22,595 bases of DNA from Pezizomycotina sp. ARF18 (lineage: Eukaryota > Ascomycota): positions 1 to 22,595 of the forward strand of contig AZLU01000063.1 in the NCBI GenBank assembly GCA_002224055.1. Reading direction: 5' to 3'. This document shows positions 2,232 to 21,047 of the stretch, one piece after another. A program made the position numbers and the translations under genes. The notes under the pieces were generated by a model, which was given only the letters and a program-made list of their open reading frames with translations, ran no database searches and had not been told where the DNA came from. How positions within the stretch are numbered: the first letter of the stretch is position 1; each line of letters starts with the position of its first letter.

Positions 2232-3624
2232 TCAGGGCGGGGTTGCAGTATTCGAGCCTAATGGTGTGTTATCAGACTGCGTTCCCTGAGAATCCGTCAT
2301 GCTAGGCGGCGGAGAGGAGGAGAGGGGGCCGTTGGTAGCTCCCGCCGGGTGATGCTTTTTGCCTGTGCGACCAGCATTCTTCTTGTTCTTCTGCTTTGCC
2401 TTCTCGAGAAGGCGCCTCTTCTCTGCAAGCCTTCGCCGTTCCCTTCTATCTTTTATATCGTACTGCCTCATCAGAGCCTCTGGCGGGCGCCCGAAGATAG
2501 ATTCATATTCACAAAATTCACAAATCCAGATCTCTCCGCGGGGATTACTGAGCGCTGCCTGCCGCAGCCGCAGCCTTTGCTGCTGGAGGGCGTATTCACG
2601 CCGGGCTGCCGGGGACCTCGTTTTCTTCTTCGCCTGAGGCGGCGGAGGGTACGCGCCGGAATTCGACATGCTGGAGAAGTCTGTGTCCTACGGTGGACAT
2701 TGACTTCGTATAGCCTCCGGAATTGCCGTGATGTTGCGGCGCCGGTCGAGAGAAAGCAAGATTTGCGGACACGGGCGAATCACACGCGAACGTAAAATGC
2801 GTACTTGGCGCTGCCATGCCGGATCTGTCGACAATATTTTCCTTATCTGATGCCTTTGAATGTAACGGCGAATCCAACTCTGGAGGCGTAGCTTTGCCAT
2901 TTATGGTCACGTGATTCGGCTTCCTGGTTGGTGTTTCGTACGGAGACGTCGGTCCGCTTCCAGGATACCTTCTGACTCTGCGTACCGGATTGTTCCCGCC
3001 CGATGACAATGACGAAAGCGGAGAGCGTTGTGCGGAAGAACCTCCCGAATTCTTCAACGGTTGCGAGGAGTAGACGTCGCACCGGTAGGGCTATATCCAG
3101 CCTGAGAGCCAGCATGGCCGTAGGAGTTTCCAGATGGCATCCGGAGCTTATGCCGCTCCCAAACCCCGGAATAGCACCCGCTTGTCCGCTGAACCCGGAC
3201 CCATTGATGATAGCCCCTCCGGGATGGCTGGGGTAGGTATTTTACGCTTCTTCTTGTTGTTCGTATTCTCAGACCAATCGTAGCTATCGGCCTGCCCGCC
3301 GTGGTGGAACTCCAAGCTAGAAATCGGGGTGACCCGTAGGTTGTCCGGAGCGTACCTGGCGTGAGCCGAGCGTGGCTATGATTGTCCTCCTCATCCGATG
3401 ATTCCAAAAGTTGATCCCGCCATTCAGCATAGACGATGTCCCGTGGAGACACCAGCCGTGGGTGGGTAGGTATACGGAAGGTAGAACAACGGTGTTTGAG
3501 CCGGCTGCGTCGGCGACGAAAGGATGGCAGATGAGGCGTCGGCTGAAAGTCGAGAGCGAAGACGACGCTTGGGAAGAGGCCGGATGGGACGGCCATTGAC
3601 CACACTGAACGTGTCTGCATGCAT
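2232..3624 (-). CDS. conserved fungal protein with C-terminal CxxC/basic helical domain, frame-broken
   Basis: The start is chosen at the ATG at 3624, which leads into NGRPIRPLPKRRLRSRLS, a motif I recall at the N terminus of a conserved Pezizomycotina protein of unknown function. Intact length would be about 465 residues with no intron seen. The middle is Ser/Gly/Pro-rich and disordered, with a basic NNKKKRKIPTP patch that could be a nuclear signal. The C-terminal about 145 residues are the conserved part: basic residues, then IWICEFCEYESIF (CxxC, encoded near 2511-2531), then a charged helix, RQYDIKDRRERRRLAEKRRL, and a low-complexity tail. The frame shifts near 3470, 3365, 3231 (CCCC), 3141, 3063 and 2688. 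Four of these are single-base losses; the breaks near 3470 and 2688 are net -2 or +1. Single-Cys-pair metal binding or RNA/DNA contact is possible but unproven. It is divergent from the PHD gene, 4.7 kb away. Confidence 0.82.
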
Positions 3625-6600
3625 TGCATCGATAAGTAACGTTAGGTACACAACTGCATCATTGATATATTATCGAACTTCATAAGAGAAAAGAGAAAGG
3701 GGTGGACCGAAAGGAGCAAAAAGAAATGTGTATCTAAGGGTTCCTTTGTGTTACGTGAATGATGACAATGGGAACAGGGAGTATTGAGGAATGGGGGGCT
3801 GGTGGAATGTGTTTAATAGGTAGGTTATATTGGGCTCGGAAGTGATAAGGAAGGTGCAGACAAGCCATGAGCTGTTCATTTTCCGTACCGGTTCCTTGGA
3901 TGTTGTCATCTTCTATTTGGAGATATCTCGGATTTAGGTCAACCAGGCAGGGAGACGGCAGAGGTGAGAAGAAACGTTGTAGTCGTGGCTCAAAGGTGGC
4001 AATACGGATGGCCCCAACGCTTATCTACTCTTTCTTAACCCTGGATAACGATGTAAACAGATCGAGAGATTTGAACCGTTCAACCGATAGAAGGTAGCTA
4101 GGGTCTGATTCCTTGCAAGTAAGATTGAAGTAAGCAACAGACTGAAGGGAAGGGGGTCAGTACATGAAGGGGAAAGATTGGATGCTGTTTGAGTATGGCT
4201 GTAGGGTAATAAACGGACGAGTTTTTAGGATGGAGGATTTGCTCTAATGCCGATGCCCGCTGCCATAAATCGATGCTTGGGTTGGTGTATAGGAAAAAAA
4301 AAAAAAAAAGAACCCCTACTTTCTCTATGATGCTTTCCCCCTCCTCGTGACGAGTATTTAAGATCTGATAGCTTTGCTTTCGATGATAAAAGCTTTCGAA
4401 TAATCTATATACTTGAAGTATATAAAACCAATATACTAATGGATGTCCTTGTCTTTCAGCTCCTTCTCCGTCTTTGTTTTTCCTCGTTCTCCTTCTCTCT
4501 TTTTCCTAATTTTAAAATTCTTTCTAAAAAAAAAAATATCGGCGTGTGGTTGGTGGGTAATTGATTGATTGATGGATTGATTAAGAGTATAGATTAAGTA
4601 AATAACTAAAAGAGAGAAAGAGGGGAGAGAAATAGATTAAAAAAAAAAAAAAAAGCCCTGCAAGCTTGCCTGCTCTCTCTATCTTGCTCTATCTATACAC
4701 TGCAAATTAATTATCGTTTTTATTCATTTAGCCTTGCCTTGCTTCAAGAAGAAACCCCCGTCTTAACCTTTCTTTTAAACCCTTCGAAAAGCCCTCAATT
4801 TTTTTCCCGATACGTGTGGGGTGGATAGTGCAGTTAGGTCCAGCAGGACGGTTGTCCGTGCCGTGGATTAGTTACGGTCTCCTCCGACGAGCATACGAAA
4901 GCACAGAGGGATGATATATATATAGCTCACGAATACAGTATGCTCAGCAAAGTCGAATATGTTTCTAGACCGAAGACTATTCAATTTACCCACTCTAATA
5001 ACGGGTATAAGCTTGTACGAATTGCGGCGGGCGGACGAGTAACTGCTATGTAATGTTTACTAATGAGAAGGCCGCATGCACTAGATAATCGGTGGTAGTT
5101 TTCGTACTCGAGGAGGTCTCGTGATGGTCACTCAGGCTGTGGTATATGAGAAGGAAGGGCAGGACTCTAAAGTCAAGGCGAAAAATAGAATCAAATCATT
5201 CGACAAATCATGCAGTGGTCCTTACTATTGGTTCTTGCTGGCCGCCTTCGTTATTATTTATAATCAATCTTAGCATCCAGTGACTAGATTCTCTCTTGGA
5301 GGGAGTTCTAACAAAGCAATATATATATTATTGACTATTCCATGCCCTTGGACGTTACTCCCATGATTTTGGCAATCATCATCTACAGGAATAAGATAAT
5401 AGTAGTATTATAGACGAACCCTTGGGGATAAGAGATTATGTGAACTGGCGGCGAAGATTGTCCGTACGAGTTGAATTTTGGATGTCAAGGTCAATTTTCT
5501 AGAAGGTGGATTCTATTTTCATAATGTTTCCGAAAGAACGAAGAAATCACCATTGCAATAACCCAAGTCAAGCGAAATTATTTATCGGTATTTCAAAGAA
5601 ATATTGCTGGATGTGACGCGACGTAGGACAATAAGAATATATATGAAATAATTAACGGATACGACCAATGCTTAAATAGGGCATTTGCAGTATCCGGAAT
5701 CTGGATGCGCTCCTGAGGAAAAGCTTCGAGAACGACTATGACAGGCTGAGTCTAGAAGGTGAAGCCGGAAGCCCGTAATGTATGGAAATTCGAAGGTTCC
5801 TGTTTTAGGCAAGAGATTTTTCACCAGATGAGGAGGAGCATCGCATGAATATAGCAGACGATAAAGAACTTAAACCGTAACCACCGCGATTTTCGATGAA
5901 GCGAGGCTCTGTATGTTTGATAATGATCGTCCCTTCTACAATATCTGACAAGGCACGCTGGATATCCTATTATATTAAGGGGGGAAAAAAAGGCGAGAGG
6001 AAATAGCAACGGTAAACCTCCCTACGCCGTTAGTATTTCTTCGGATGATCGAACTCGAGACTATATGAAGGTAGAAGCTTGAGAGGAATTGACGCAGCAT
6101 ATGTGGCGTTTTCTTCTTCGATGAAGTTTCGAAAAGGCTCTAGACCTTGCACCTGTCACCGTTGAGTCCTACCCAGCACGCTTCTTCAGAAAAAAAAAAA
6201 AAAAACAAAAAAAAAAAAGCAGAGAGGAAGAAAGCTTGCAAGGGAGCGGGCCCTTTTTAGAACCTCAGTTTTATGTAGGTCAATAGAAAAGACAGCACTC
6301 TTGCAGGAATGAGCTGCAGAAGGATACTGTGAGAGAAAAGCAAACGAGAACTTGCTTGCATATCGAAATGAGAGCGGTTAATCAGAAGAAGACAAAGAAA
6401 TGGGAAAAAAGGCATATCTGATTCTGTTAGTGGGGTCAGCTGTCTGAATGATTTGTTGTACCGCTAAAAACTTTTTGATTTCCATCCTTTTCCACCTTTT
6501 TCGGCGTCCTTGAAAAAACCACCACGGGCGGCGGGTAAGAAAGATACACACGAGTACTGATTGATACTGCTGAGCGCAAAGCTGGTAGTGATGAAATTTA

Positions 6601-6860
6601 GTACCCTGAAGATGTATCTTTTTGATTCGTTCGCTTGATCTGTTTTTAATACGTCGATAAACGTGTGTAGGAATTACTTGCAGCGATAACAGCAGTAGCG
6701 ACAACGAGGAGAAAGGAAGAGAGGGCAAAAAAAAGGGCATCATTCTCATTTGCTGCTGAGCGTAGAGGGGGAAAGAGTAAGTATAGTATGATAAAGGGAT
6801 TATTCTTTTGCTGGCGGTTGAAAAGCAGGAAGAAAAAGAAAAGAAGAAAGAAGGGCCAGA
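3625..6860. other. intergenic and 5' region of the CxxC gene, no supported gene
   Basis: No open frame here shows a recognisable domain. Contents are A-runs (about 4293-4309, 4639-4654, 6190-6204), ATTG repeats near 4560-4582, a perfect small inverted repeat TATATACT/AGTATATA at 4406-4424, and pyrimidine-rich stretches at 4440-4520. The first few hundred bases above 3624 probably hold the promoter and 5' UTR of the minus-strand gene, but no specific site can be assigned. Confidence 0.6.
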
Positions 6861-6861
6861 A

Positions 6862-6895
<34 letters not shown>
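6861..6895. repeat. (AAT)n microsatellite
   Basis: About eleven perfect AAT units. Confidence 0.95.
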
Positions 6896-6898
<3 letters not shown>

Positions 6899-7117
6899 TA
6901 AAGAGAACAGAGAGATTAATAAATATATTTTGATTCGGCCTGCAAGGAAAGACATTAGTTAGAACTTAGCAAGGGAAATAAGTAAGACTAACAATTACTG
7001 TATTGGTCTGTATTGACGTATTTCTCAGAGCTATAAGCCTGCTAATTCTACCAGATCGGGGTCATTTAGCACCTATTCCCTTACCGAAGAGATAAAGCTC
7101 AAGGTTGGTTTCAAAGC

Positions 7118-7184
7118 TAAAAAATAAAATAAAATAATAAATAAATAAATAAAATAAAATAAAATAAAATAAATATAAAATAAA
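7118..7184. repeat. (AAATA)n / (AAAT)n simple repeat
   Basis: This is a run of AAATA and AAAT units with minor interruptions. Confidence 0.9.
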
Positions 7185-7420
7185 CTGCTTTTTAATAATA
7201 ATTAGTAGCAGCAGACTAAACTACTGCTACATGCGAAATATCTTAGTTTTTGACCGCCGCTATACCGCAGCTGAATGTACAGGTCTCGTTCCCCCTCATT
7301 TTTTTTTTTTCTCCCGCCCTCAGTTCAGTCGCCGGTGGTGCCTGTCCTCCGATTTTTTTTATTATGGTGAGAGAAGGAAAAAAAGGGAAACAGGAAAGGG
7401 AAGAAGAAAGAACAGGAAAC

Positions 7421-7517
7421 GGAAGAAGGAAGAAGGAAAAGGAAAAGGAAAAAGGAAAAAGGAAAAAGGAAAAGGAAAAGGAAAAAAGGAAAAGGAAAAA
7501 GGAAAAAGGAAAAAAAA

Positions 7518-7550
<33 letters not shown>
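7421..7550. repeat. 98-nt pure purine GGAAAA tract joined to (TTA)n
   Basis: From 7421 to 7518 the plus strand is uninterrupted purine, mostly GGAAA, GGAAAA and GGAAAAA units, and it passes directly into about ten TTA units (7519-7550). A less perfect purine-rich lead-in starts near 7370. It is about 0.8 kb upstream of the PHD gene start. Translated as lysine/glutamate or tyrosine/leucine runs it gives open frames that are not genes. Confidence 0.95.
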
Positions 7551-8324
7551 TTTTTAGTATCTTATTATATTTTCTTAATCCAGCCAGCCACCATGAGACT
7601 TCCTCTGTGTGCGTTGTAGGTTGTAGGCCGGTCTAATAATAATAATCTCTCTTTATTATGTGTGGGTTGAAGTGAGTGTGTGAGGGAGAGTCCGTTTTTT
7701 TTTTTTTTTTTTTCCTGTTGCTTTAGGCCGGGTGGTGCTCCTGCTCCTACTAAATTTTTTTTTCTACTCGCAGTCCTCCATCTTTCCCAGTCCTTCTTCT
7801 TCTCCCTTTCACCCCTCCAACTGACTGATCCTCTTTCCCACCGTTGTATATCCTTTTCTCGATACTCATTCTTTACTCCGATAGTCTCAATCGATCCTGT
7901 TGTCTTCTTCAAGTCCCAGTGTTTATCTTTCAAAAGTCTTGGGAAACGATTCCATCTTTCTCCTCGCCGAGTTTCGCTCCTCCACACCGTCAGATGAGAG
8001 TCTTTCTCCCCGTCGCCAGATTGCCTCTTCTTCTCAATCATCGTACATTCAGCACTTGACGCATCCTTAGACCCTTAGGGTGTCCACCGTACAAGAAAGA
8101 ATAGTTTTTATTTTGTTGATCATTTTCGGCCTTCTCAGGTCTTGAATCCGACCTTTTTTTTTTTTTTTTGCCCACTCTCACGAAGTCCCTTTTTTTTCTG
8201 ACTGGCAGCCTCACCTACTACTCAAGAGACACGCCTAACCTCACAATCCCCCTTTATCTTAAAACTATTTCACCTTTTATATCTTATTTGATAACTCGGT
8301 AATATTATTTACTCTCTCTCGAGA
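7551..8324 (+). promoter_or_regulatory. probable promoter and 5' UTR of the PHD-finger gene (pyrimidine-rich)
   Basis: The plus strand is strongly C/T-rich from about 7690 to 8320, with T-runs at 7695-7713 and 8154-8169. CT-rich leaders are common just upstream of filamentous-fungal genes. No TATA box or defined operator can be assigned. The minus-strand open frame at 7565-8041 consists of repeat-derived residues and is not supported. Confidence 0.45.
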
Positions 8325-10382
8325 ATGTCTCCTCGCCGCTCTTCCAGAGCGCGTCCTCCAACGCTCACTCCAGTTCCCACCAGTCCTCCCAATCATCCCG
8401 CGGATCCCGTCACAAAAGGAACGATGACAAGGATGACGCTCACATCACCGCCGACGACGGAATGCACGACGGCGACGAGCTCCTAGAAGACGATCCCGAC
8501 GAGAACGGCTCCGAAACGAAGAAGATGAAGGGGAAACCCGATGTGTCTGCGGCTTCAAGGAGTACAGGGCGGATCCGACGACGGATCCACCGATGCGACT
8601 GACGGCCTTTTCATCCAGTGCGACCAGTGCAAGGTTTGGCAGCACGGCCTGTGCGTCGGTATTAGAGATACCGCGCTCGCACCTGAGAACTACTTCTGTG
8701 AGATGTGTAAACCAGCGTTCCACTCTCTGTACGAGAAAAAGGGCGGGTAAGAAACATCCCTCACCAAAATATCACCCAAAGTCACCCCATTCCCCATCTC
8801 CCTTTCCTACAACGCAATTTTTTTTTTTTGCCATGACCCTTCATTCGTATTTCTCTTGAGCCTATCCTCTCCTTTTCACACCATTTACCCTTCTCCACTT
8901 TCTTTTCACCGATGGAAAGGGTAGAATTTCCATCAGTCTTGATTTCAAGTCCGGAAAATGGTCCGCAGTGCTAATCGCCAATAAAGGAGAAAATACTCCA
9001 ATTACATCGGTACCGGAGATGGCTCCGACATCCATTCCAAGGACCATCCTACCAAACGCCGTTCTACTATGAATTCCAGAGATGCAGCGTACGATGAGCA
9101 GGTTCTTCTCCAGCGAGCCATCGAAGAAAGCAAGGTTGCCGATAAGAAATCAAGTAATCCCAGGAGTCGCAAGCGTGGAACTAGTGAAGGCTCGGACGAG
9201 TATGAAAACCTCCTTTGATGACACCCATTTTCACTTCTCTCGTTCATCTTCCTCCCTTGTTATTTTTTCTCCTTCTTTTCTATGGACAACCCGCTAACGA
9301 CATGTAGGATCAGGGGAGAGAGTAAGAGACAACGCACTTCCAACTCTCCTGACAAGACAGCCACGGAGGCCGTAGAATCCACCGATGAAAAGGCTGAGAA
9401 GTCTGGATCGGGTAAGAAAGGACGAGGACACGCACCAACAACAGCTCCAGCAGCAATAACAATAACAACAACGCCTCCTCGAGTAAAAGGTCATCGAATA
9501 GAAATCGTGGCCGCGAGAAAGGAGAAAGTCGTCGCGAAGGTTAGCATACAGTAATGCAATGAAGGGGAAGAGAGAAAATTGGATGATTGATGAGCGGCAG
9601 AGAACGCCCTTTTTCAGTGATTATTTACTTATATTATTCTCCCTGTATAGAGTCCGAACAATCGACGAGCACCTCGGAGCACTCGTAATACCCAAAAGTC
9701 CGAGGATCAAATTCCCACCATCTCTACGCCTGTTCCGGAAGCACCAGATACACCACAGCCCAAACGCAGCGGCGAGCAGCAAACGGCCGAAGACAGCGCA
9801 ATCGCAATCGTAACCGCCAGTCAGAGGATCTTGGTGACGCTTCTTCTCAGGTCATGACAAGAGATCACTCCATGACTGGAGTTGACCACTCGAGGAATGA
9901 TACCGTTATCGACAAGCCCGCAAAGCCCCGTCTCCCGGGTCCAGGACTACCCTGCAGGAGATGCGCAAACGCGTCAACGGCATATCTGACTTCATCGCGA
10001 GGACCCAAATCGAAATGGCCGAGACAAGAAGCGTCTTTTTGCCTTCTCTGCCATTGTCACTGCCACTTCTCCTCCAGCTTCCACTCCCAAGGTTGTTGCC
10101 GAGATCGCCGAACAGGCCCCGAAGATGCCAGTCGTGACCGGTATTAACGGTAATGTAACGGAGAGTCTTCTTCGAGCTTGTCATCGTCTGCGAGCCCACC
10201 GTCCGGTGTCCCAGATGTGACCGTCAACGGCATGCAGGTCACTGTGAGTCTGAGATCCTGAAAAGTGCGTCGATATTTCAAATCTTCAAAGTACAGAGAT
10301 TATGGACCTTCTCATGCGCAAAGTCCATCAATGGAATGCACATACGGCCGTCAAGGTGAGAAGGTATCAGTATAAGTTATAA
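8325..10382 (+). CDS. CTI6: PHD-finger protein, Cti6-like (Rpd3L histone deacetylase complex), five exons, frame-broken
   Basis: Exons are 8325-8746, 8987-9199, 9308-9539, 9651-10243 and 10299-10382. Intron 2 has branch GCTAACG at 9293; intron 1 has GCTAATC just before its AAAG acceptor. The start MSPRRSSRAR fits the family. A Ser- and acid-rich region precedes a C4HC3 PHD finger: RCVCGF, then GLFIQCDQCKVWQHGLCVGI, then NYFCEMCK, with all eight ligands present. KYSNY, RRSTMNSRDAAYDE and an Asn/Ser/Arg low-complexity stretch follow, then LQEMRKRVNGISDFIARTQI, as in Cti6 C termini. Intact length is about 515 residues, close to yeast Cti6. In yeast Cti6 is an Rpd3L subunit linked to Cyc8-Tup1; such PHD fingers read H3K4 methylation. 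Frame breaks near 8355, 8515, 8568, 9418, 9685, 9763, 9938, 10018 and 10162 each fit loss of one base. Exon 2 is intact. The last exon is less certain. Confidence 0.85.
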
Positions 10383-10580
10383 CCTATTCTATAAAATAAG
10401 AAAAATGGGTTCCTTGTTATATCTATGTGGGGAAAGCCTTACCTTGTTGTCCTATAACGCCCTGAAAGAATAATTATTGTCTCCCGCATTTGTGCCGTTT
10501 TCTCACACCAGAAGAATTGTTGAAGCCAATAATGGCGGCCAAAGGTTGTTTCCGCTAGGTTTATTTCTTTCCTCTTTCTT

Positions 10581-10586
10581 AATAAA
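10581..10586 (+). terminator. candidate AATAAA poly(A) signal of the PHD gene
   Basis: AATAAA lies about 200 bp beyond the proposed stop codon and is followed by T-rich DNA. Fungal poly(A) signals are loose, so this is suggestive only. Confidence 0.35.
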
Positions 10587-10817
10587 ACCTCCCTCTTCTC
10601 CCATTCTCATTGCTCCTTGACGATATTTTTGTTTTATTTGTTCCGGTAGTTGGCCTATTTTCCCTACGAATGTGCGGTCAAAATTTATTTTTGTTTTTTA
10701 TTTTTTTTATTTTTTATTTTTGGTTCTCGGCTTTGCTGCTCTTTCTTTTCTCCAGCCATTATTGCTCTTTTCCGTCTGCCTCAGCTACTGGATCGGCGCG
10801 GGTTTTGGAGTTCTTTG

Positions 10818-10842
10818 TATATATATATATATATATATATAT
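10818..10842. repeat. (TA)n microsatellite
   Basis: An uninterrupted alternating TA tract. Confidence 0.95.
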
Positions 10843-12324
10843 TTCTCTCTTGCTTTTCATCTCTTTTTTCTCTTGCTTCTCTTCATTGCACAGGCCGGCG
10901 TATAGCTGCTTCCTTTTTTTTTCTCTTCTCTTTTTAAACCATTGCATTTCCTGAAAAAGTAACATCTGATCTTCTATTTGTACATTTTCCCTCCCCCCTT
11001 ATCGCCTTATATACCTTCACACCCATGCAGGTAATTCCAAAGATATCGCCAGCCAATCATGTTTCATCTCACACCTCTATAATCTTACTCAGATCTTACG
11101 TCGCTTCGCACTTGACCACCTCATTCCCGCGCTTAACTTTCTCATTGTATACCGGAGTTTTCTTCAGCGCTCCTTTTTTTTTTCCACCGCATTACCGCAC
11201 ATTCGTCTCCTTTCAAACCTTTTTTCCATTTGTCATACAATGTACAATTTCTTGTTTTAAAAAATATGGGCGGCTTCGGATTTTTTTTTTTTTAAGCTTC
11301 TTGTCACTCTCTTTAACGGATCTTTTTTTCTGCATGGCTGATGCCTACACACATGTTTTAGCTTTGATTTTGCTTTTGTGGTTCTTTGTTTGTCAACTAA
11401 AGGTCGGTGTCTTTTCTTTTTAAGCCATATATATATATACACAACACTTCCTACACATCATATTATATATATTTCCTCGGTATATTCCATCTATGACGCA
11501 CCTTGTTAATACAAGTCTCTGGTCACAACTCTCACCCCGGATCCAGTCTCGGCCCGGGTCTATACTACTACTCGTTTATTCTACCTTTTTTACTTGTATT
11601 TGTCTTAACATCTGAACAATTTCAGGTATAAAAAAGGGACAGGGCTCAAGGAAGAGGATATCTTCTCAACTTTATCAAAAATGGATCTTTGTTGTTCTAG
11701 TCAAGAACTAATTCTCTAACCTCTTTACTCTCTACTACTCTTTGGATTTCCCCGTATCTTTTTCTCTATTAATACCAAACTGTTTTGGTTTTGGTTCTTC
11801 TCTTTTGTTCTCTTGGATTGGAAATCTGCGATACGATTTTACTGCTTTAGTTTATCCTTTTTTTTTTTAATGCCAAAATGTATTATGTATGATGACTACA
11901 GCTGAACTACCAGCTCCTTCAGCGGATGACTCCTTTTCCTACTTGAATTTTATTTGAATATATCCATCTCTCTATACGAATTTCCTTCTACATCTCGATT
12001 GATAGCGTTTAAAGTCTTTTTTCACGCCGGTACTCATGACTCGCATGGGGTCATCAGCGGTCTGTTACGGTCTACTTGGAATTATGTACATCTCCGCGTC
12101 TTCTGGCTGCGATCGAGTGTTTCTTTAAAAAGCGGAAAATTTTACGTTTTTACACACATACACACTCTCTCTATCTGGTGCTGAAGTTTGCTCGGTTTGA
12201 TGTTTCTCCGCAAGATGTTCTTTACGAAAAAAAGAAAGTTGATTGATTAAGATATACCCACGGGTGATTTAAAAAAAAATAACGAACTGGTTGTTCGGTG
12301 GTATAACGTTTGATATCTTTGTCT

Positions 12325-12394
12325 TTTTTTTATTTTTATTTTATTTTTATTTTTATTTTTATTTGGTTTTGGTTTTTATTTGGTTTTGGTTTTA
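12325..12394. repeat. TTTTA / TTTGGTTTTGG low-complexity tandem repeat
   Basis: Repeated TTTTATTTTTA units are followed by two copies of TTTTATTTGGTTTTGGTT, the second slightly altered. This is a simple tandem repeat. Confidence 0.85.
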
Positions 12395-12967
12395 TGTATG
12401 TATTGAAGTATTGTAATGAATGCTTTAGTTCCCCTCGAAAAGAGTCGTGTATATCTATCTTTCTACTAGTTCTGCAAAGATGAAAAGATACAAAAACAGC
12501 TTAAGCATAAAATAAACATAAATTGAAAAAGATGGTATCAAGGTATCTTGAAAACAAATTATAAAGAAGGCTGCTGAGTGTTCGGGTATCATGTATGATG
12601 TTGTCGTGTTCGTTAATGAATGTTATTAATAGTCGCTTTTTGAGATATATGTTGTACCACAACAGAACATAGTTCTCAATTTTCCAAATATACTTAGGTA
12701 ATTATAATACATATATATGTAGATGCGATAGTACGTATATTTGATTGTAGATATATGATAAGTAGATGATATAAATTATAGCTTGGGTGATCGTGAGAAA
12801 GTAGAACACTAAAAGTAAACACCGCTACCCTACCCGGGAGAAAACAACGAAGAATGCATGCTAATATATCATGACAAAAAAAAACTAGATGGTAGTAAGA
12901 AAGCAACACACGAACTATCGTCAAAAGAGAGTATCCAAAGAAATCAAACGCCTGTTTCTGTAGTGAA

Positions 12968-15554
12968 TCACACCGAAGACCCAAAAATCGACGATCCGTA
13001 ATTTGCAGATTCGTAGCCGTTCAACGACGAAGCGGACCCCGGACTCGACGGCCCGGTCAGGAACGTACCACCCCCGAAATCACTTCCTATAGGCCACCCT
13101 GCTTCTTCAGCAGATGCTTCGCCCGCTGCGGCTGCTGTATCTGACACTCTCCGTCGTCATCGCCGTCCTGCTCCTCTTCCGCTGCTGCTCGAACATGCAC
13201 TGTATCCTCCTGGGCCTGTACTCCTCCATCGTCTCGTCGTCGGCGTAGAAGCTACCCCTGCCTAAACCCCGCGGGATCGGCGTGTCCGTCGTATCCGCAT
13301 CGGATTCGGCGTCGTCGTTGCAGTTGCGGTTAAAGTCGTGCGCGGCGTGTATGCGGATATGCACCCTCGACGCTAAACCTAATTCCGCGTCGTTTATGTT
13401 CGCCGCGGTTGCGCCTTGCGGAGTAATGTGCAGCATCTCGCGAACGCGATCCCGCTCCCGTTCTTCCATGGATTTTCCATGTCCGTGTTCCGCTCCCACT
13501 CCTGTCGGCGACGGTGCTGGCGCCAGCAATCATGGTATTTACGCCGGCACCTCCGCCGCCGTTCGTCCTCGTTTTACGACCACCGAAGGTAGAAAGGCGA
13601 GCTCGCCACGGCTTAGCCTTTTCCGCTTGTCAGCGTTGTCACTACCGGGAGCAGGTTCGTCGGCGCTACCAATACTAGCCACTTCCGCCAACCGCTCCCC
13701 ACGCCGACGCCTCCGTGCTGCGCGGGTGGCATATCGACGGATAAACTCCTCTCCTCGGCGCAGCCCGCCGCCAAACAACACTCCGTCCTGGTCTCCGTAA
13801 CAGTTCCAAGACCGGATATAGAAAGCGATCGGTCCTCGTCGAGCGTCTCAACAGATAACGTCCCTCGGTCCCGCCGTATTCGTCGCCGTCCAATCCGGCG
13901 ACGTAACTTTCGTCTTCTCGCCAAAGTTCGTAGAAAACCTCGTCGTCCTAGTCCTATTAAATCTAGACTTCTTGGTGAAAAAAGTCGACCTGAGCTTTCC
14001 CATCATCTTCTCGTTCCGACTTCCCTAACGTTCCTGGTATCGAGCCCGCCGCGGGTTCGCGGACGCTACCTCCCTGGCGGTTATCACCGCTACGGCTCCT
14101 TTACTGCGGCCGCCGGATCCCATACCGACGGTAACGCAGCAGATACCGCCGCTGCCGCCGCTCTTGCGAATGTGCTCCATACGAGAGCTCCAGAACCATT
14201 TGAGAGGCGGGCAGCAGGCGACGATAATGCCAGCTGCCATCTCCGACGCACTCGTGGAGCCAATTAGCGGGAAAGAGGCAGCTAAAACCACGAGGATTAT
14301 ACGGCTATCGTGATCGCAATGCATATGAATCCAAACCAAATATCGCAAATATACCGGCGAGCCGTCTTCTCGACGTCGTTGCGGCAAGCGTCCGGATGAG
14401 GAAAAAGGTAATGCGTAGACTTTTTTATATTAACAAAAATGTTAGCCTAAGCTTATCGAATAGAAATGTTGGGAAGATACGTACTCATTAGGTCACTCAT
14501 AAGATGGAAAGCGGCTGTGATGAGATATGTTGGTACGCTTGCGACGGCTATAACGAACTAGAGTTAGCTACGAAAATCAAATATATAGACAATATAGCTT
14601 CTCAACTCTCTATTCGACATACCTAAACACCTATCAGGGCTTGAAGTGGACCAATTTCTCCATACCGGAAGACACCAGAAGAGATTGAAGCAGAGCATCA
14701 GGACACAGCCAGAGCCGTGAAGCCCGTTGTAAAATACAGAGCCCGGCGTAATTTGATGTGATCGGGCGGGAAGAGCCTGAAGTAAAGAAGTATAATTGCA
14801 GCTTTGATAAGATACAAAGCAAGATAGTAGAGCGGGGTCGAGAAGTATAGTATCTGAGCAGAAAATTTGAGAGTATGTTAGGCATTATAATAAGCGGGAA
14901 TTGTCACTTCCAGAAAGAGAAAAAGGAGCGATTGGGGGTAATATCAGATTGTTAAATATCGGTCAAACTGCTCCTTCATAATGGCACAGGTGCATTCATA
15001 CTCAATTTAATAGAAGGGTTATTGTCAGACTGGATATTTATATATATAATACCTTCAGAACCTTAACCAGCATCCGCTTGTCGGGAAATACCACGTCGAA
15101 ATCCGGTAGGTTGGTAGACGTGAACCTGATTTTCGGATTCCACATGCCATACTTGTTGGAGTAAATGTCGCATATGGTGTTACTCAGGAACAAGAGCCAG
15201 GCTGCAACGATCAAGAAATCGGATGCGGATAACTTTCGTAGTATGTAAGCCTGAACGTAAACACGCAGGACAACGAATATCCCCGCAAGAGTCAAACACA
15301 CTGACTCAACACCCTATTTGAATAACGGTTTTTTTCCATCGTGTAAGCCAAAAGGAGCCTTTAATATGGGAGAATGTGATCATTATCATATACAAAAATG
15401 TATAGGCTTGTTTATAGAGTTAAAAGTACCTTAATCTTTAGAGAGGATTGCAACAAATGTCAACCATTGGCAGATTTTGTATGGATGGATGAATATAAGG
15501 GACTGGAAAGAATATACTCACTACGGCACCGTGCGGTTTTAGGTCGGGTTGCAT
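12968..15554 (-). CDS. PTH11-like seven-helix membrane protein (fungal rhodopsin-domain family), five exons, frame-broken
   Basis: Exons on the minus strand are 15554-15522, 15313-15053, 14853-14623, 14557-14485 and 14419-12968. Intron branch sites CCTAAC (14877-14882), GCTAACTCTAG (14558-14568) and GCTAAC (14441-14446) support the model. Exon 1 encodes MQPDLKPHGAV with no signal peptide or CFEM domain. Seven hydrophobic segments follow in family order: LTLAGIFVVLRVYVQAYIL; DFLIVAAWLLFLSNTICDIY; LYYLALYLIKAAIILLYFRL; LMLCFNLFWCLPVW; FVIAVASVPTYLITAAFHLM then SDLMIYALPF; RRRLAGIFAIFGL then GFICIAITIA; SASEMAAGIIVACCPPLKWF. A long tail rich in Ser, Gly, Arg and acidic residues ends with WPIGSDFGGG and a Ser/Gly stretch (stop 12968-12970). 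Intact length is roughly 690 residues. PTH11 relatives are surface receptors for host or surface cues; the ligand here is unknown. Single-base losses break the frame near 14703, 14404, 14331, 14303 and 13098, with more in the tail. The exon 3-4 phase is unresolved. Confidence 0.83.
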
Positions 15555-20696: not shown

Positions 20697-21047
20697 CTAG
20701 TTTCTACCCGGACTAAATTTTAATGAATCCATTAGCATCCTTACCCATTTTACTTTCGAAATATATATGAAAAGTGAATGCAAGTGACCTGGGGAACGAG
20801 CTCGTATACCTTCTTCCTCTTCGAGGCTAACGCTGCTGCTCTCTATATCGCTGACACTGTGACTGCGCCGTCCTCCGCGCCGGAACCTTCCGGTGAAGGT
20901 ATACGAGAAAAGCCCGCGGCGCGAGTTGTACGTGAACGCGAATATCAGCAGCAGTACCGCGATGACGACGGCGAAGCTGATGGGAGGTAGAAGGCGACTG
21001 CGGGGTACATAATTTTTACCCTTTGATCTTGCTCCCGCCGTGCGACG
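20697..21047 (-). CDS. possible C-terminal part of a single-pass membrane protein
   Basis: An open frame without an internal Met start runs from after the stop at 21048-21050 to the stop at 20697-20699. It encodes a hydrophobic segment, ISFAVVIAVLLLIFAFTY, directly followed by a positively charged and aromatic stretch (NSRRGLFSYTFTGRFRRGGR), then a Ser-rich and acidic run (SDIESSSVSLEEEEG). This order (helix, basic stop-transfer, acidic/Ser cytosolic tail) and the raised GC of 20840-21000 suggest real coding sequence. No family is recognised. Upstream exons on the minus strand and indel breaks like those in neighbouring genes could explain the missing start. A chance open frame cannot be excluded. 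Confidence 0.4.
   Translation of the reverse strand, partial: RRTAGARSKGKNYVPRSRLLPPISFAVVIAVLLLIFAFTYNSRRGLFSYTFTGRFRRGGRRSHSVSDIESSSVSLEEEEGIRARSPGHLHSLFIYISKVKWVRMLMDSLKFSPGRN

Follow-up and report, generated by a model that had tools for sequence, protein, structure and literature searches.

Frame breaks in the genes of a fungal contig most likely reflect base-level errors of an indel-prone draft assembly

The window, i.e. the whole stretch of DNA analysed here, comprises bases 1-22595 of contig C63 (203,056 bases). The assembly to which this contig belongs has 408 contigs and totals 46,361,250 bases. Three genes are recognisable in it, an orthologue of the PHD-finger protein Cti6, a gene for a CxxC protein and a PTH11-like receptor gene (Table 1). 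Among the best 120 of 723 matches of the Cti6 protein, the first nine relatives are Orbiliomycetes and the tenth is a Tuber; the top match, Orbilia brochopaga (50% identity, 92% of the query), is followed by other Orbilia species, Dactylella, Arthrobotrys and Dactylellina. The five best matches of Prp8, a core protein of the spliceosome encoded elsewhere in the assembly, are also Orbiliomycetes (85-86%), and no near sibling of the host is found among the matches listed. Judged from these proteins, the host would be an Orbiliomycete, in or beside the class of the nematode-trapping fungi.

Table 1. Features recognised in the window
Feature	Position in the window	Strand	Basis and remarks
CxxC protein gene (coding sequence with frame hops)	about 2232-3640	minus	database matches and frame-tolerant alignment
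Cti6 orthologue	8325-10382	plus	PHD finger, orthology, tblastn pieces in different frames, frame-tolerant alignment (ending by 10366)
PHD finger	8595-8708	plus	profile positions 8-47 in one frame; first cysteines upstream, in another frame
PTH11-like membrane receptor gene (fungal rhodopsin domain)	12968-15554	minus	pieces in different frames; outer limits from the initial annotation or from open frames

The PHD finger of the Cti6 gene scores 40.1 bits in a profile search, against a cut-off of 24. When the intact Cti6 of a relative is compared with the window by tblastn, consecutive pieces of the first exon fall into three frames with no room for an intron between them. A candidate for an intact second Cti6 elsewhere in the assembly was rejected: the sole other match is to the N-terminal and PHD part and lies in a gene on contig C3 (39%). 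The CxxC protein is widespread in Pezizomycotina. Its three best matches are metagenome proteins, the first being 48% identical across 99% of the X-joined pieces, and the named matches mix Orbiliomycetes and Pezizomycetes. All three CxxC matches in the assembly fall within the window gene, and a second intact copy was not found in the assembly. Some relatives of the CxxC protein carry a precomputed PF27834 label; in the two relatives that we scanned no Pfam family was matched.

Cti6 and CxxC are divergent neighbours in the window (2232-10382). In distant Pezizomycotina the two genes bear adjacent or near-adjacent locus numbers (H072_363/364, EJ06DRAFT_560589/560590, GP486_004532/004533 and M1819_006619/006620). 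A conserved gene pair is suggested, and it seems to sit in its normal genomic place here.

In the PTH11-like gene, the piece at 14698-14877 reaches 29.1 bits against the Fung_rhodopsin cut-off of 27 and covers profile positions 56-105, and the profile continues at positions 103-136 in a piece of another frame (14564-14884, E 0.062, under the cut-off). The single junction that can be placed, by coordinate arithmetic and with the second piece under the cut-off, is a frame change of the one-base-lost kind. Elsewhere in the window an open frame on the minus strand (20697-21047) encodes a single hydrophobic helix followed by a serine-rich and acid-rich tail; it could encode the end of a small membrane protein, and a Pfam match to it was not found. 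No tRNA was detected by ARAGORN (bacterial settings) in the window or in 20 sampled regions, and the window has no Rfam match at the gathering score. Next to the window, 4,093 of the 10,000 bases at positions 22000-31999 of the contig are N, which would mark either a gap or sequence that has been withheld.

The initial annotation had read the three genes as broken by single-base losses in the same direction, with no nonsense substitution needed, and had proposed a frame-tolerant comparison with relatives as a check. We carried out this comparison with an aligner in its second version, which allows introns that split codons, using six of the best 120 references for each of the Cti6 and CxxC genes. 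Intact orthologues of both proteins can indeed be aligned along the window only if the reading frame is changed repeatedly. In Cti6 most hops are of a kind that corresponds to one lost base: the ratio of this kind to the other is 44:5 at cost 20, 49:13 at cost 16 and 55:15 at cost 12, and each reference gives 7-8 one-base-lost hops and 0-2 others at cost 20. The alignments at costs 12 and 20 place four introns, and each Cti6 alignment contains either no stop or one. The corresponding ratios for CxxC are 21:11, 36:8 and 48:8 at costs 20, 16 and 12, with 0-3 stops read through, only at costs 16 and 20. The direction of loss is less certain for CxxC than for Cti6, because the hop directions are mixed with two of the six references and because of the stops at the two higher costs. 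On the whole, the observation made in the initial annotation is borne out.

Breaks of this kind are found well beyond the window. Prp8, the HSP70 proteins and the chaperonins are proteins that a fungus cannot lose. The Prp8 gene occupies one place in the assembly, on the largest contig, and contains 22 single-base losses, one two-base loss and one single-base gain in 7,037 coding bases, i.e. one event per 293 coding bases, with no in-frame stop in 2,330 aligned codons. Identical codons number 2,126 of 2,330 against the first reference (91%) and 2,122 against the second, and the event counts are equal. Losses account for 23 of the 24 events (sign test, 3e-6), and the spacing of the events is random-like (CV 1.0). 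A run of at least three identical bases lies within four bases of 13 of the 24 hops, against 8.6 expected (P 0.057), and 11 hops have no such run within that distance. In a simulation, eight indel-free runs gave no hops, and 288 injected indels led to 273 calls of the injected single-base type, five two-base calls and one call of the wrong sign.

The same picture is seen in the mitochondrial HSP70 which, aligned with E. coli DnaK, shows six single losses and one double loss, no gains and no stops. Among the HSP70 and chaperonin genes, 12 of 15 loci, distributed over 11 contigs, show at least one hop that leaves no room for an intron, and the 33 hops comprise 26 of the one-base-lost kind and seven of the other kind. 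We treat these profile matches as supporting evidence only, as several pairs overlap heavily and 23 intron-sized gaps were set aside. GroEL is too distant from the four chaperonin loci compared with it for their hops to be counted. Two close losses can also mimic one gain, a point that was examined at the mitochondrial HSP70 locus only. Long open frames are few: in 186 kb (19 regions) there are nine stop-to-stop frames of at least 300 amino acids, the longest of 409, a count from a sample in which 11 of the 19 regions were chosen around PHD matches, the twentieth region was dropped for its 4,093 N in 10,000 bases, and no intact genome was set beside it. A and T runs of up to 35 bases are common in the sampled regions, despite the single-base losses in genes.

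A measure of error that needs no reference is provided by contig C50 (231,088 bases). This contig is mitochondrial: translated with the mould mitochondrial code it yields LAGLIDADG endonucleases and an ATP synthase A chain, and of the assembly's 54 listed tRNA matches it carries 33, all on one strand. Two of its tRNA pairs occur again 215,404 and 215,390 bases away, and positions 5001-15000 and 220401-230400 prove to be the same stretch written twice (10,051 aligned columns). Since the copies lie near both ends of the contig and about 215.4 kb apart, we regard them as the overlap expected when the sequence of a circular molecule continues beyond its starting point, which puts the size of the mitogenome near 215 kb. 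Between the two drafts there are 111 indel events (95 affecting a single base) but only four substitutions. Indels between them in the near absence of substitutions therefore point to error, and not to divergence, decay or recoding.

The frequency of indels in the two drafts rises with the length of the run, from 21 of 4,199 runs of one base (0.5%) to 22 of 194 runs of four, 16 of 65 runs of five (25%) and 7 of 20 runs of six. The initial annotation had placed many of its breaks in short homopolymers, and the runs that it named are present, i.e. AAA at 8514-8516, GGG at 8567-8569, AAA at 9417-9419 and AAA at 9762-9764, as well as two that it had given for the minus strand and that read GGGG (3230-3233) and AAAAA (14402-14406) on the plus strand. 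The link to homopolymers is shown by the mitochondrial overlap; the hops in coding sequence would not suffice to prove it. Coverage is usually lower at contig ends, and the rate in the two drafts, both taken from near contig ends, may overstate the error rate of the genome as a whole; the final 2 kb of the alignment contain 59 of its 136 gap columns.

It could be argued that the two mitochondrial stretches are real, diverged copies that arose by duplication, heteroplasmy or insertion into the nuclear genome, in which case they would be uninformative about error. Fungi do have mitochondrial repeats and nuclear inserts, as is generally known. However, true divergence would have added substitutions to the indels, and the position near both ends of the contig, with a spacing that fits the mitogenome sizes given for Orbiliaceae (146-281 kb, PMC7174627), speaks against separate copies as well, so that we find this explanation very unlikely.

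It is almost certain, in our opinion, that the frame breaks are base-level errors in a draft that was assembled from reads prone to indels, most probably underpolished long reads. Frame hops occur in essential genes on many contigs, losses are in excess and the two mitochondrial drafts are discordant by indels. According to this explanation the consensus of the nuclear genes for which a rate was obtained would have dropped a single base every 150-300 coding bases or so, the loss would happen more readily in homopolymers, as on the mitochondrial contig, and the Cti6, CxxC and PTH11-like genes would presumably be normal in the living fungus. The initial annotation had argued for uncorrected long-read deletions in the three genes, and this cause is backed by Prp8, the HSP70 and chaperonin genes, the short open frames and the mitochondrial double draft. 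Two adjustments are called for: the damage extends beyond the three genes, to essential genes on other contigs, and 11 of the 24 Prp8 hops are not close to a run of three or more. We infer a long-read origin from the error spectrum, and a lack of polishing seems probable. The platform itself we leave open, because the surviving A and T runs would be unusual for a basecaller that collapses homopolymers, and because the link between Prp8 hops and homopolymers is weak.

There is a slight chance that a few hops are real, for example if the PTH11-like gene has truly decayed in this lineage. That all three window genes have decayed, i.e. that the window is a dying or relic region with real frameshifts, we regard as extremely unlikely. 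It is true that breaks affect each of the three recognisable genes and that intact second copies of Cti6 and CxxC were not found in the assembly. Nevertheless, Prp8, HSP70 and the chaperonins on other contigs are broken in the same way, the mixed disablements, stop substitutions included, that a pseudogene would show are not seen (no stops in Prp8, 0-1 in Cti6 and, depending on cost, 0-3 in CxxC), and the Cti6 and CxxC proteins of the relatives are full-length in the database.

Another explanation would attribute the hops to short introns that were overlooked or to artefacts of aligning poorly conserved proteins. Short introns are generally known in fungi, the direction of the CxxC hops varies with reference and cost, and the aligner does call false events. 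In a control for chance, proteins of the relatives were back-translated and aligned pairwise by the aligner in its first version, which had no codon-splitting introns, and 146 intact pairs gave 58, 21, 3 and 11 frame events at costs 12, 16, 20 and 24, together with 46 false introns. In the window this version, run with 11 and 10 references for the two genes, called hops of the other kind more often in Cti6, e.g. 11 losses and 4 gains with one reference and 7 and 7 with another. But the three events in 146 intact pairs at cost 20 stand against 7-10 per single Cti6 alignment, and in Prp8, which is 91% identical to its reference, the frame changes although hardly a residue is lost and an intron would not fit. 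The alignment of the mitochondrial HSP70 with DnaK contradicts this explanation too. Taken as an account of the breaks in general, missed introns and alignment artefacts are therefore exceedingly improbable.

Genome-wide translational recoding, by which the genes would work as written, might appeal to hops that are frequent, run mostly in one direction and have normal protein on either side, but it is next to impossible, given that the 24 Prp8 hops have no slippery motif in common (3-, 4- and 5-mers are no more shared than in random sets; P 0.18, 0.24 and 0.09), that like indels separate the two mitochondrial drafts, beyond the reach of recoding, and that the database entries for Prp8 and Cti6 from relatives in the same class are uninterrupted.

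The breaks are an ordinary sequencing or assembly artefact and not biology, and their importance is that of a quality warning: gene predictions, pseudogene counts, claims of gene loss and protein sets will be badly wrong unless the assembly is polished. The repeat near both ends of the mitochondrial contig serves as a reference-free gauge of error that could be used on other assemblies.

It is useful to compare these observations with known systems. Firstly, Cti6, which we take to be the PHD-finger subunit of the Rpd3 histone deacetylase complex, provides the natural counterpart of the window gene. The two are alike in the PHD finger and in near-full-length orthology, and the window gene differs from Cti6 of the Rpd3L complex only by its frame-hopping letters. 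Secondly, programmed ribosomal frameshifting and other recoding share with the present case that the protein continues across a change of frame, whereas the Prp8 hops are without a common motif and indels of the same kind occur between drafts of one stretch. Thirdly, one report on long-read assemblies (PMC12007338) describes long-read errors as mainly short indels at homopolymers; in a bacterial draft that it presents, false deletions made up most indel errors and frameshifted genes were the result. As far as that description goes, the present assembly resembles underpolished long-read assemblies in its single-base losses, in the rise with homopolymer length, in its few substitutions and in its split genes. 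It differs from them in that very long A and T runs are kept, and the error rate is higher here than in the bacterial draft, for which 2,900 errors (less than 0.05% of the assembly) are given (PMC12007338).
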